Shown: positions 3,954-64,000 of the stretch, one piece after another
Layout: each line of letters starts with the position of its first letter
Position numbering within the stretch: the stretch's first letter is position 1
Assembly (NCBI GenBank): GCA_913031035.1
Contig: CAJWGN010000002.1
Location: 39,471-103,470 of the forward strand
DNA length: 64,000 bases
Reading direction: 5' to 3'
Source of the DNA: an uncultured Gammaproteobacteria bacterium
Lineage (GTDB): Bacteria; Pseudomonadota; Gammaproteobacteria; Pseudomonadales; Pseudohongiellaceae
Notes under the pieces: generated by a model
Database searches by the model: none
What the model saw: only the letters and a program-made list of their open reading frames with translations
What the model was told of the DNA's origin: nothing
Position numbers and translations under genes: made by a program

Positions 3954-5111
3954 ATGTTCAGACGCCTAAAAAATTGCCACAACGTTGAAGACCTCCGCCT
4001 ATTGGCTAAACAACGCCTCCCAGGACCCATTTTCCACTACATTGACGGGGCCGCAGATGACGAAATCACTTATCGACGCAACACCTCAGCTTTTGATGAC
4101 TGCGACCTTGTGCCGAATGTACTGGCCGGCGTCCAAGACATAGACATGTCGGTCACGGTAATGGGGCAAAAGCTCGCAATGCCGATATATTGCTCACCAA
4201 CAGCGCTTCAGAGGCTGTTTCATCATGATGGAGAGCGTGCGGTAGCTCGTGCTGCAGAAAAGTTTGGCACCATGTTCGGCGTATCTGCCTTGGGTACGGT
4301 AAGTCTTGCGGAAATTGGAGAGATGATTTCTACGCCTAAGCTGTTTCAGTTTTATTTTCACAAAGATCGCGGTTTAAATGATGCAATGGTCGACCGCGCA
4401 AAAGCTGCAGGCTTTAACACCCTCGCCCTCACGGTAGATACTATTACCGGCGGTAATCGCGAACGTGACTTGTACACCGGCTTTACCTCGCCGCCACGGC
4501 TCACGCTGAAAAGCTTAATGAGCTTTGCTACGCACCCTAGTTGGGCTCTAAATTATTTTTTGAGAGATCCTTTTGAACTAGCAGAGCTCAAAGATTTTGT
4601 TCAACAAGGATCAAATGTCGCCGTCTCTATTGGCGACTATTTCTCCCAGATGCTTGATCAATCCATGGACTGGTCAGATGCCGAAGCTCTGCGTGCCCAA
4701 TGGGGCGGACCGTTCTGCTTAAAAGGCATTATGAGCGTTGCCGACGCCAAGAAAGCCGTAGACATCGGTGCAGATGCGATTATGGTTTCCAATCACGGCG
4801 GTCGCCAGCTAGACGGCTCACGCTCTCCGTTCGATCAGATCGCCGAAATTGCAGATGCGGTTGGTGATGACATTGACATAATTATGGACGGCGGCGTCAG
4901 GCGTGGCACTCATGTAGTGAAGGCATTAGCAGCAGGCGCCAAGGCTTGCTCAGGCGGCAGAATGTACCTCTATGCCCTGGCTGCGGCAGGCCAGCCAGGT
5001 GTTGAGCGAGCGTTACAAAACATGAAGACTGAAATCGAGCGTGACATGAAACTAATGGGAGTTACCAAAGTATCTCAACTAAACCGAGAGATGCTTAGAT
5101 ACCGCCGTTAA
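3954..5111 (+). CDS. FMN-dependent alpha-hydroxy-acid oxidizing protein (L-lactate dehydrogenase-like)
   Basis: FHYIDGAADDEITYRRN, LTVDTITGGNRERD, VSNHGGRQLDGSRS, DGGVRRGTHVVKALAAGA signatures. Confidence 0.9.
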   Translation: MFRRLKNCHNVEDLRLLAKQRLPGPIFHYIDGAADDEITYRRNTSAFDDCDLVPNVLAGVQDIDMSVTVMGQKLAMPIYCSPTALQRLFHHDGERAVARAAEKFGTMFGVSALGTVSLAEIGEMISTPKLFQFYFHKDRGLNDAMVDRAKAAGFNTLALTVDTITGGNRERDLYTGFTSPPRLTLKSLMSFATHPSWALNYFLRDPFELAELKDFVQQGSNVAVSIGDYFSQMLDQSMDWSDAEALRAQWGGPFCLKGIMSVADAKKAVDIGADAIMVSNHGGRQLDGSRSPFDQIAEIADAVGDDIDIIMDGGVRRGTHVVKALAAGAKACSGGRMYLYALAAAGQPGVERALQNMKTEIERDMKLMGVTKVSQLNREMLRYRR

Positions 5112-41612: not shown

Positions 41613-43190
41613 ATGCTCAATTCTTTAAAAAGCGACCTGCCTGCCAGCATCGTCGTGTTTTTTGTAGCCTTACCCCTGTGTTTGGGCATCGCTTTGGCCA
41701 GTGGCGCACCACTGTTTTCTGGATTAATCGCCGGAATTATCGGAGGCATCGTGGTTGGTATACTAAGCGGCTCCCAAATTGGAGTCAGTGGCCCTGCGGC
41801 AGGCTTGGCGGCGATCGTATTGGCGGCTATATCCTCCCTTGGTAGTTTCGAGAATTTTCTTATGGCGGTCGTGCTTGGCGGCGTCATCCAAATCGTATTA
41901 GGTATCTTGAAAGCTGGCATTATCGGCTATTACTTTCCCTCATCTGTCATTAAGGGCATGCTGACAGGCATAGGTATCATTATTATCCTAAAACAGATTC
42001 CCCATTTTTTCGGTTACGATGCTGACCCAGAAGGTGATTTTGCATTCTTTCAAGTAGACGGTGGCAACACCTTCTCTAGCATCATCAATACCATCGACAA
42101 TGTCAGCCCAGGGGCCACTCTAATCGCCATGATTAGCATGGGGATCTTATTGCTTTGGGATATAGTGCTATCCAAAAAATCGAGGGTCTTCCAGTTGGTC
42201 CAAGGCCCTTTGGTAGTCGTCGCGGCAGGTATCATTTTTTATCTGCTCACGCGCAATAACGAGACATTTTCAATATCCGCCGAGCACCTTGTAAGCGTGC
42301 CCACGCCGGATAGCGTGTCTTCGTTTTTTGGTCAATTTATAACACCTAATTTTGGTGCTATTACCAATCCCCAAGTTTGGCTAACCGCATTTACGATCGC
42401 TTTAGTCGCCAGTCTCGAGACCCTACTTTGCGTCGAGGCTACCGACAAATTAGACACCCAAAAGCGGGTAACACCAACCAACAGAGAATTACTGGCACAG
42501 GGTACAGGGAACATTCTTTCAGGAATGATCGGCGGCCTTCCTATCACTCAGGTAATAGTTCGCAGCTCAGCCAACGTTCAGTCTGGTGGTCGCACCAAGA
42601 TCTCAGCCATTGTTCATGGCATTTTCTTGTTAATTTTCGTGGTGATGGCGCCCGGGCTACTCAATATGATTCCTTTGTCTGTACTGGCGGCGATTCTCTT
42701 CACTGTGGGATACAAGCTTGCTAAGCCTGTGCTGTTTAAAACAATGTATGCTTTAGGCTGGAAGCAGTTTTTGCCCTTCGCGGTGACTGTATTTGGAATA
42801 ATCTTTACTGACTTACTTTTCGGCATAGGCATGGGCTTGGCAGTTGGAGTCGTTGTTATTCTCATTAAGAGCTACCAAAACTCATTTTTCCTGCACAAAG
42901 AAGACGGCCAGGGCTCTGGACGAATTAAAATGACCTTCGCTGAAGAAGTGACTTTTTTCAACAAAGGCGCCATTTTAAAAGAACTGGACAGCCTCCCAAG
43001 CGGCACTTTTCTTGAGCTGGACATAAGCAACAATCGCTATCTTGACCATGACATCATAGAGATCTTGGATGACTTCTCCCACAAAGCGAAGCTAAGAGAC
43101 ATCACTATTCAAATCATTTCCGAAAAAGGCGCAGTGGAAAACCCGGCAAGTTATTTGGAATACTTCAAATCGAGCCCTCAAACAGCTTAA
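41613..43190 (+). CDS. SulP-family anion (possibly bicarbonate) transporter with short STAS region
   Basis: LPASIVVFFVALPLCLGIALASGAPLFSGLIAGIIGGIVVGILSGSQIGVSGPAAGLA; SLETLLCVEATDKLD; NILSGMIGGLPITQVIVRSSANVQSGGRTK. Confidence 0.93.
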   Translation: MLNSLKSDLPASIVVFFVALPLCLGIALASGAPLFSGLIAGIIGGIVVGILSGSQIGVSGPAAGLAAIVLAAISSLGSFENFLMAVVLGGVIQIVLGILKAGIIGYYFPSSVIKGMLTGIGIIIILKQIPHFFGYDADPEGDFAFFQVDGGNTFSSIINTIDNVSPGATLIAMISMGILLLWDIVLSKKSRVFQLVQGPLVVVAAGIIFYLLTRNNETFSISAEHLVSVPTPDSVSSFFGQFITPNFGAITNPQVWLTAFTIALVASLETLLCVEATDKLDTQKRVTPTNRELLAQGTGNILSGMIGGLPITQVIVRSSANVQSGGRTKISAIVHGIFLLIFVVMAPGLLNMIPLSVLAAILFTVGYKLAKPVLFKTMYALGWKQFLPFAVTVFGIIFTDLLFGIGMGLAVGVVVILIKSYQNSFFLHKEDGQGSGRIKMTFAEEVTFFNKGAILKELDSLPSGTFLELDISNNRYLDHDIIEILDDFSHKAKLRDITIQIISEKGAVENPASYLEYFKSSPQTA

Positions 43191-62172: not shown

Positions 62173-62847
62173 TTATGCACCTTTATTTTCTTTAGCCTCT
62201 TCAGCTGCGTTCGCAGCAATCAATGAGGCATAGCGCTCTTCGACAGACACGAATTTATCTTGATCCTCGTCGTAAGCATTAACTGAGCCGTATTCAATAT
62301 CGTAAACCCAGCCGTGTAAATCGACTTTTCCAGTGCTCATTTTGGCCAAGACAGCTGGGTGAGTGCGCAGGTGTTGCAGCTGAAGAAGCACGTTTTCTTC
62401 AGTAACACTGCTTAATTCATTTTCAGCAGCATCACCAAGCTTTGCTCTCACTACGTCAACGGCAGCACGAGTATGCTCTAACCACTCCTGAACATGAGGA
62501 AGGTCGCCGAGGGCTGAAACATTTAGCGCGCCTTTCATGGCGCCGCAGTCGGTATGCCCGCATACCACGATGTGTTTAACGCCTAAAGCCGATACTGCGA
62601 ATTCTATAGATGCGGTTACGCCACCCGCTACTCGCTCATGAGGGGGAACAATATTCCCTGCATTTCGAATGATAAATAATTCGCCTGGCTCTGTCTGGGT
62701 AATCAAATTGGGGTCGATTCTAGAGTCAGAGCAGGTAATAAAAAGCACTTCAGGACTTTGCCCGTTGGCTAGTTCTGCAAACAATTTCTTACGCTCTTCG
62801 AAAGAAGTCGACTTAAATTTAACAACACCTGAAATAACTTTTTCCAT
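62173..62847 (-). CDS. Beta-class carbonic anhydrase
   Basis: FITCSDSRIDPNLITQTEPGELFIIRNAGNIVPP; ASIEFAVSALGVKHIVVCGHTDCGAMKGAL. Confidence 0.95.
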   Translation of the reverse strand: MEKVISGVVKFKSTSFEERKKLFAELANGQSPEVLFITCSDSRIDPNLITQTEPGELFIIRNAGNIVPPHERVAGGVTASIEFAVSALGVKHIVVCGHTDCGAMKGALNVSALGDLPHVQEWLEHTRAAVDVVRAKLGDAAENELSSVTEENVLLQLQHLRTHPAVLAKMSTGKVDLHGWVYDIEYGSVNAYDEDQDKFVSVEERYASLIAANAAEEAKENKGA

Positions 62848-62940
62848 CTTAAATCTCCTATCTTTTAGCAAATGTCTAACATGCGAGCAATGTTAGGGTG
62901 TTTTTATTGAAAAAAGTTAGGTAATATTCTGTTATTAGTT

Positions 62941-62955
62941 ATAGCTTTATACTAT
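62941..62955. promoter_or_regulatory. OxyR-type half-operator between divergent genes
   Basis: ATAG-ctttata-CTAT (ATAG-N7-CTAT). Confidence 0.55.
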
Positions 62956-62978
62956 CACCATAGTTGGGGGAGTTTGAC

Positions 62979-63926
62979 ATGGAAGCCGCAGATAAACTGA
63001 GCCTGAGACAACTTCGCTACTTTGCTGCAGTAGCGGAATACGGGAGCTTTCGGCAGGCGGCATTCAAGTTGAATATAACCCAACCAACTCTGAGCAATCA
63101 GATTTCTGTCTTGGAAGAGCTGTTGGGTCTCCAATTATTCGAGCGATCTCGCAGCGGCACAAGTACCACTGTTGAAGGGCGTGAGTTGTTGATCAGTGCT
63201 CGCCGAGTAATAGAAGAGGCGCAAGGATTCTCCACCCAAGCAGGCTCTCTCTCCGGCGGCGGAGTCGGCACCTACAGACTCGGGGTCACACCTACTTTAG
63301 GGCCCTATTTACTCCCTCATATTTTGAGCCCAATACACAGCCGCTATAAAGATCTAAAACTCTATGTAAGAGAGGAAGCACCGAGTGATTTGGAGAGTGG
63401 GTTAATCAATAGTCAATTTGATTTCATATTGAGCACGCTGCCAATTATGTCCAAAGAACTCGTCGTCATGCCACTATTCAGAGAACCCTTAAAATTGGCA
63501 ATCACCAAAGATCACAAGCTTGCCAGCAAGGTTCGAATTAATCGAATGGATTTGCTCGGAGAGCAGGTGTTAACCATTAGTGAGCATCATTTATTTCACC
63601 GTCAAATTTCCGAGTTATGCGAAAAGGTCGGCGCATCAGTACGCAGAGACTACGAAGGAACGAGTCTGGATACCCTCAGACAAATGGTAGTCATGGGGAT
63701 GGGGATGGCATTTCTGCCAGCTCTTTACGTGCGCTCTGAGATCCGCCAAGAAAGTGAACTACGCATAGCCGATGTAGAAGGCGTAAATGTAGTACGCAAT
63801 CACGCACTGGTTTGGCGAAATACTTCGCCGGCCAGAAATTTTTATCGTCAGTTGGCTTTAGAAATCAGGGAAATTATTAGGGAAAAGCTTAGCGATGTTG
63901 TGATTCCAATAGAAGCAGTCAGCTAA
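62979..63926 (+). CDS. OxyR-like LysR-family regulator
   Basis: LSLRQLRYFAAVAEYGSFRQAAFKLNITQPTLSNQISVLEELLGLQLFERSR; TSLDTLRQMVVMGMGMAFLPALYV. ATG at 62979 with GGGGAG upstream. Confidence 0.88.
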   Translation: MEAADKLSLRQLRYFAAVAEYGSFRQAAFKLNITQPTLSNQISVLEELLGLQLFERSRSGTSTTVEGRELLISARRVIEEAQGFSTQAGSLSGGGVGTYRLGVTPTLGPYLLPHILSPIHSRYKDLKLYVREEAPSDLESGLINSQFDFILSTLPIMSKELVVMPLFREPLKLAITKDHKLASKVRINRMDLLGEQVLTISEHHLFHRQISELCEKVGASVRRDYEGTSLDTLRQMVVMGMGMAFLPALYVRSEIRQESELRIADVEGVNVVRNHALVWRNTSPARNFYRQLALEIREIIREKLSDVVIPIEAVS

Positions 63927-63940
63927 AAAAGTAAGTGGCC

Positions 63941-63972
63941 GTAGGTAGGTAGGTAGGTAGGTAGGTAGGTAG
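63941..63972. repeat. Tetranucleotide tandem repeat (GTAG)x8
   Basis: Eight perfect copies starting 15 bp after the LysR stop. Confidence 0.95.
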
Positions 63973-64000
63973 GCAGGTACAAAACTGGTAAAAATAAAAT

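Follow-up and report, generated by a model that had tools for sequence, protein, structure and literature searches.

CcmR/NdhR and CmpR of cyanobacteria are LysR-type regulators of inorganic-carbon uptake, and Acidithiobacillus ferrooxidans, an organism with the LysR-type regulator CbbR, carries a can2-sulP cluster in its genome (PMC6458275). CO2 and bicarbonate sensing and regulation are poorly known in heterotrophic bacteria compared with autotrophs; in the literature searched, with most subscription journals outside its coverage, we found no LysR regulator of SulP or carbonic anhydrase (CA) genes outside autotrophs. OxyR, a LysR-type regulator of peroxide defence genes, recognizes in E. coli a motif of four ATAG elements (PMC3953959), and its residues T129 and C199 belong to the H2O2 site (PMC7038661). 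Here, we analyzed a window of 64,000 nucleotides from an uncultured gammaproteobacterium of the Pseudohongiellaceae, near the end of which an OxyR-like gene diverges from a beta-CA gene (Table 1). We find that inorganic-carbon uptake, not oxidative stress, is the most likely role of this regulator.

Table 1. Features of the regulator locus, in window positions.
Feature	Position	Strand	Remarks
Beta-carbonic anhydrase, divergent from regulator	62173..62847	-	PF00484, 172.8 bits; CSDSR and HTDC motifs
Shared intergenic (promoter) region, 131 bp	62848..62978		between beta-CA and regulator
Place of second, weaker half-site (TGATAG...)	62910..62924	+	conserved in relatives; window position inferred
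Predicted operator TTATAGCTTTATACTATCA	62939..62957	+	1 mismatch to clade palindrome TGATAG-N7-CTATCA
LysR-type regulator, OxyR-sister clade, 315 aa	62979..63926	+	ATG at 62979, stop at 63926

The regulator contains HTH_1 (76.7 bits) and LysR_substrate (144 bits) domains, each above cut-off, and among solved structures it matches OxyR of P. aeruginosa best (4x6g, E 3e-39). Among curated family models, OxyR scores best (194.7 bits), followed by CidR (140.8) and CynR (136); the OxyR score lies below the equivalog cut-off of 329 bits, as does that of the two-cysteine OxyR encoded in the same genome (238.9). The CbbR model NF045990 reaches 114 bits against a cut-off of 450. An AlphaFold2 model of the regulator (mean pLDDT 87.6) retrieved OxyR structures at ranks 1-9 in a Foldseek search, with CcmR, of the cyanobacterial CO2-concentrating mechanism, next. 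Sequence, family models and fold thus agree on a LysR architecture with OxyR as the best homologue.

The main new result is the gene context of the clade to which the regulator belongs: a divergent CA, SulP or both. In the window, the divergent gene had been called a beta-CA in the initial annotation, and its family match and intact CxDxR and HxxC active-site motifs bear this out; its top PDB match is the carbonic anhydrase 5swc (200 bits), and no other PF00484 gene was found in the assembly. Scanning named genomes, we confirmed at least 533 relatives of the regulator, and we counted the neighbourhoods of 80 named-genome loci. A divergent CA and/or SulP is found in 77 of the 80 loci, and both in most: beta-CA with SulP in 51, a 159-aa COG4337-type iota-CA with SulP in 5, and a 123- to 162-aa CaMKII_AD/HHSS-type protein with SulP in 11, besides SulP without CA in 7 and beta-CA without SulP in 3. 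Three loci have neither, one of them ending at a contig edge; L053 and L145 lack the CA/SulP genes and the operator alike. Relatives of the window from its own genus show the same CA/SulP context beside the regulator.

The identity of the alternative CAs follows from several matches. The 159-aa protein matches PDB 7c5v with 161 bits, which makes it a COG4337-type iota-CA, and scores 189 bits, below cut-off, with NF047901. The shorter protein matches CaMKII_AD (PF08332, 69.7 bits) and SgcJ/EcaC (TIGR02246, 49.2 bits), both above cut-off, and its C-terminal end reads HHSS-AMPEG; a CaMKII_AD-type annotation and an HHSS motif are features of bacterial iota-CAs (PMC8425729). Beta, COG4337 iota and CaMKII_AD/HHSS iota-like proteins form an apparent replacement series among related genomes, with examples in L024 (861-1340, minus strand) and its relatives, and in L111 and other Halieaceae loci. 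The exchange of such distant CA types at the same place beside the regulator is an argument for CO2 hydration as the controlled function.

The best NCBIfam model for the main partner SulP is BicA (540 bits, below the curated cut-off of 880); the DauA and sulP models match too, with scores of 306 and 282 bits for the other models. We therefore call the protein BicA-like and regard it as a putative bicarbonate transporter. In a subgroup, the genes divergent from the regulator encode another type of SulP and, after it, DabA (PF10070, 54.6 bits); this arrangement is seen in L050 (3827-6000), with similar ones in L054, L059 and L062. Among 84 genus members, 30 have both the regulator and the BicA-like SulP, 2 the regulator only, 1 SulP only and 51 neither (Fisher p 3e-19, a value that, like the shuffle statistics given below, overstates independence because the compared genomes are related). 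Both regulator-only members look like assembly or frameshift problems. As SulP proteins carry many anions and the partner falls under the BicA cut-off, one might suppose that it moves sulfate, a C4-dicarboxylate or some other anion, that the regulator senses this anion or pH, and that CA is an accessory of pH control. We consider this improbable, as the BicA model leads the others clearly in bits, and the linkage to three kinds of CA, and in the subgroup to DabA, points to CO2/HCO3-.

If the regulator sensed peroxide as OxyR does, then the residues of the H2O2 site should be in place. The initial annotation, made by eye, had read an OxyR-like protein with Leu at the Cys199 position and Cys at the Cys208 position. 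The alignment to 4x6g gives the same residues, as does a multiple alignment with E. coli OxyR and the OxyR of the same genome; Leu stands at 199 in every alignment, and none restores a cysteine there. In window numbering these are Leu205 and Cys214. As Cys214 is the sole cysteine of the protein, the OxyR disulfide cannot form and, judging from its residues, the regulator cannot sense peroxide through the OxyR disulfide mechanism. The pattern extends across the clade, where position 199 is Leu in 33 and His in 29 of 69 members and Cys in none, as against Cys in 16/16 OxyR proteins. The Thr129 position is Pro in 63/69 members, compared with Thr/Ser in 16/16 OxyR, and R201 (usually His) and D202 are lost. 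Among the new invariant or near-invariant residues of the clade, in window numbering, are R131, R223-D224-x-E226, M239, F245, Y250 and H275. We also considered and rejected a metal site rich in histidines (HHLFHRQ...C): its histidines are not universal and are mostly missing in L051 and L057.

A peroxide or thiol-redox sensor might still dispense with Cys199 and act through Cys214 alone, by sulfenylation, persulfidation or an intermolecular disulfide, and so couple CO2 supply to oxidative stress. Cysteine is indeed kept at the 208 position in 67/69 members, most members retain T100 and H198 of OxyR, and the operator is OxyR-like. However, 36/69 members, like the window protein, have a single cysteine and hence no intramolecular disulfide, T129 is replaced by Pro and R201/D202 are lost, and CynR, which is not known to sense peroxide, has the same cysteine. 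Moreover, the genome encodes a separate, canonical OxyR with both cysteines (GHCLRDHALEAC), and the listed neighbourhoods showed no antioxidant genes. Taken together, we give a redox sensor only a slight chance.

Orthologs with 69-80% identity to the regulator occur in 32 of the 84 genus members searched, and relatives with 48-54% identity in other genera. The best 80 of the at least 533 relatives include Alteromonas, Paraglaciecola, Microbulbifer, Zhongshania, Spongiibacter, Pseudoalteromonas, Halieaceae/Luminiphilus and Pseudohongiella. The hosts span a wide spread of bacteria, marine for the most part, several members from distant phyla being MAGs in which misbinning is possible. In L055, part of a regulator copy with 77% identity (4644-4865) adjoins transposase-like sequence; next to it is a copy with 50% identity that has CA and SulP, a possible trace of one regulator subfamily replaced by another.

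In maximum-likelihood trees the regulators form a single clade (support 100/99 and 100/100) that is sister to the canonical OxyR group (joint support 99/95), with E. coli CynR as the nearest outgroup to both (89/68). The phylogeny of Cys199-lacking homologues proposed in the initial annotation as a check thus places them beside OxyR (monophyletic at 90/82), not nested inside it. We had initially assumed that the clade lost Cys199; with CynR and five further E. coli LTTRs in the tree, a loss was no longer the simplest direction. The five have no Cys at 199 or at 208, and as the outgroup CynR has Cys at 208 with Ala at 199, a gain of Cys199 in OxyR takes fewer steps and would explain the sequences more simply than a loss in the regulator clade. 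Of the earlier idea of a repurposed OxyR that senses something other than H2O2, the absence of peroxide chemistry stands on the residues, and an origin from OxyR is not supported, in view of the sister position (100/100) and Ala199 of CynR.

The likeness to CynR raises a further reading, already disfavoured, in which the regulator controls cyanate detoxification and CA provides bicarbonate to a cyanase. E. coli CynR is likewise divergent from a beta-CA and is both the nearest outgroup and the third-best NCBIfam model, but the score of 136 bits is far under the CynR cut-off of 277, and OxyR is the closer relative in the tree (99/95). Furthermore, we noticed no cyanase by inspection of neighbouring ORFs in the listed loci, where SulP transporters are the partners and iota-CAs can take the place of the beta-CA. 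We consider this reading very improbable.

The shared intergenic region contains ATAG-N7-CTAT exactly at 62941-62955, where the initial annotation had pointed to it. By itself a single such match is unremarkable, as 0.8 are expected in the window and the genome-wide count equals that of a reversed-pattern control; it is significant because it is conserved in the same intergenic region across relatives. In 102 non-identical upstream regions, ATAG-N7-CTAT is the top enriched spaced dyad, exact in 57 against 0.55 expected, and the clade operator extends to TGATAG-N7-CTATCA, found with at most one mismatch in 46/102 regions; shuffles gave 0.06 and reversed sequences 1. TGATAA-N7-TTATCA is frequent in regions without the exact core. 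Motif conservation thus supports an ATAG-type operator, its site predicted from sequence. Relatives also have an asymmetric second TGATAG half-site 31 bp from the main site, toward the CA/SulP gene; in the window this half-site is badly preserved and the main site good. As the operator lies near the regulator start, it is likely to be autoregulatory too. A scan for sigma-70 promoters gave none above chance. Just upstream of the CA start lies a perfect inverted repeat, CTAACAT-N7-ATGTTAG (62876-62896), which we rejected as the clade operator, as it is absent from the enriched dyads of the upstream regions. That the LysR gene is linked to CA/SulP by inheritance without regulating them has a negligible probability, given that families at about 50% protein identity conserve a palindromic operator of LTTR type between the divergent genes and that the partner gene varies while the regulator is constant. 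Gene context, phylogenetic profile and operator conservation lend strong support to the link to CO2/bicarbonate raised in the initial annotation.

We propose, with a probability of about 80%, that the protein is a regulator of dissolved-inorganic-carbon (DIC) acquisition with an OxyR-type operator, and a putative functional analogue in heterotrophs of CcmR, CmpR and CbbR. As a dimer or tetramer, it would bind the TGATAG-N7-CTATCA operator next to the start of its own gene, and also the weaker half-site, which lies some three helical turns away in the direction of the divergent promoter. Its targets would be CA and the BicA-like SulP bicarbonate transporter in most relatives, and the second SulP type with DabA in some; it would repress or limit its own expression. 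Low CO2/HCO3- would be read via a small-molecule ligand in the effector pocket, upon which the regulator would switch its DNA contacts and activate the CA/SulP module. The activated module may supply bicarbonate for anaplerotic carboxylation, which would fit a genome with a rhodopsin gene in which RuBisCO was not detected (assembly about 92% complete); on a link between rhodopsin and anaplerotic CO2 we found little in the literature searched. More tentatively, and at somewhat under even odds, this widespread and previously undescribed OxyR-sister family may be the switch by which heterotrophic marine gammaproteobacteria, some of them with rhodopsin, respond to inorganic-carbon limitation. The pocket that binds H2O2 in OxyR would then sense bicarbonate, or a metabolite linked to carboxylation, directly, and an OxyR-type operator would be used in cells that also contain true OxyR.

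In the window genome, the CA-SulP operon of the relatives is split, by rearrangement or misassembly, the BicA-like SulP lying on contig C40 apart from the regulator and CA. We found no exact operator upstream of the SulP, katG or oxyR genes of this genome. Thus, CA is the only clear local target here, and operator cross-talk with canonical OxyR gets no support. A second SulP-family transporter, of a type different from the BicA-like one, is encoded at 41613-43190 of the window. Elsewhere in the genome (locus L199, contig C201), katG is divergent from a SulP-like gene cut at the contig end. At the extreme end of the window's own contig is a GTAG tandem repeat (63938-63973), which is probably why the assembly stops there.

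The regulator family is defined, its operator predicted and its set of targets compact, so that the sensing and regulation of CO2/bicarbonate supply in heterotrophs becomes a testable question; Alteromonas, Microbulbifer, Zhongshania and Pseudoalteromonas are cultured genera that carry the family. The clade also suggests an origin for OxyR peroxide chemistry, as the sister family lacks Cys199 but has the Cys208 position in common with OxyR, along with its fold and ATAG operator. Proteins of this kind may be labelled OxyR, or 'hydrogen peroxide-inducible genes activator', by automatic annotation.

Among known systems, cynTSX of E. coli shares with our locus a LysR regulator with Cys at 208 that is divergent from a beta-CA gene, but it is a cyanate system with cyanase and without SulP, and CynR is less closely related than OxyR. 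The OxyR proteins of E. coli, P. aeruginosa (4x6g) and C. glutamicum (6g1b) are the closest relatives in sequence and fold; the regulator differs from them in its single cysteine, the missing peroxidatic Cys199, Pro in place of Thr129, its sister-clade position, and its CA/SulP targets in place of peroxide defence genes. Both have ATAG-based operators, with elements at 10-bp intervals in E. coli OxyR and conserved half-sites 31 bp apart in the clade, a spacing that may resemble the non-adjacent arrangement of OxyR elements. CbbR is likewise a CO2-related LysR regulator, accompanied in A. ferrooxidans by a CA-SulP cluster in the same organism, but governs the RuBisCO/CBB operons of autotrophs. 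CcmR/NdhR (5y2v) matches the regulator with 93 bits, compared with 138 for OxyR, and with RuBisCO not detected, the RuBisCO-linked ligands of CcmR and CmpR would be unlikely here. What the regulator shares with CbbR, CmpR and CcmR is its linkage to inorganic-carbon genes.
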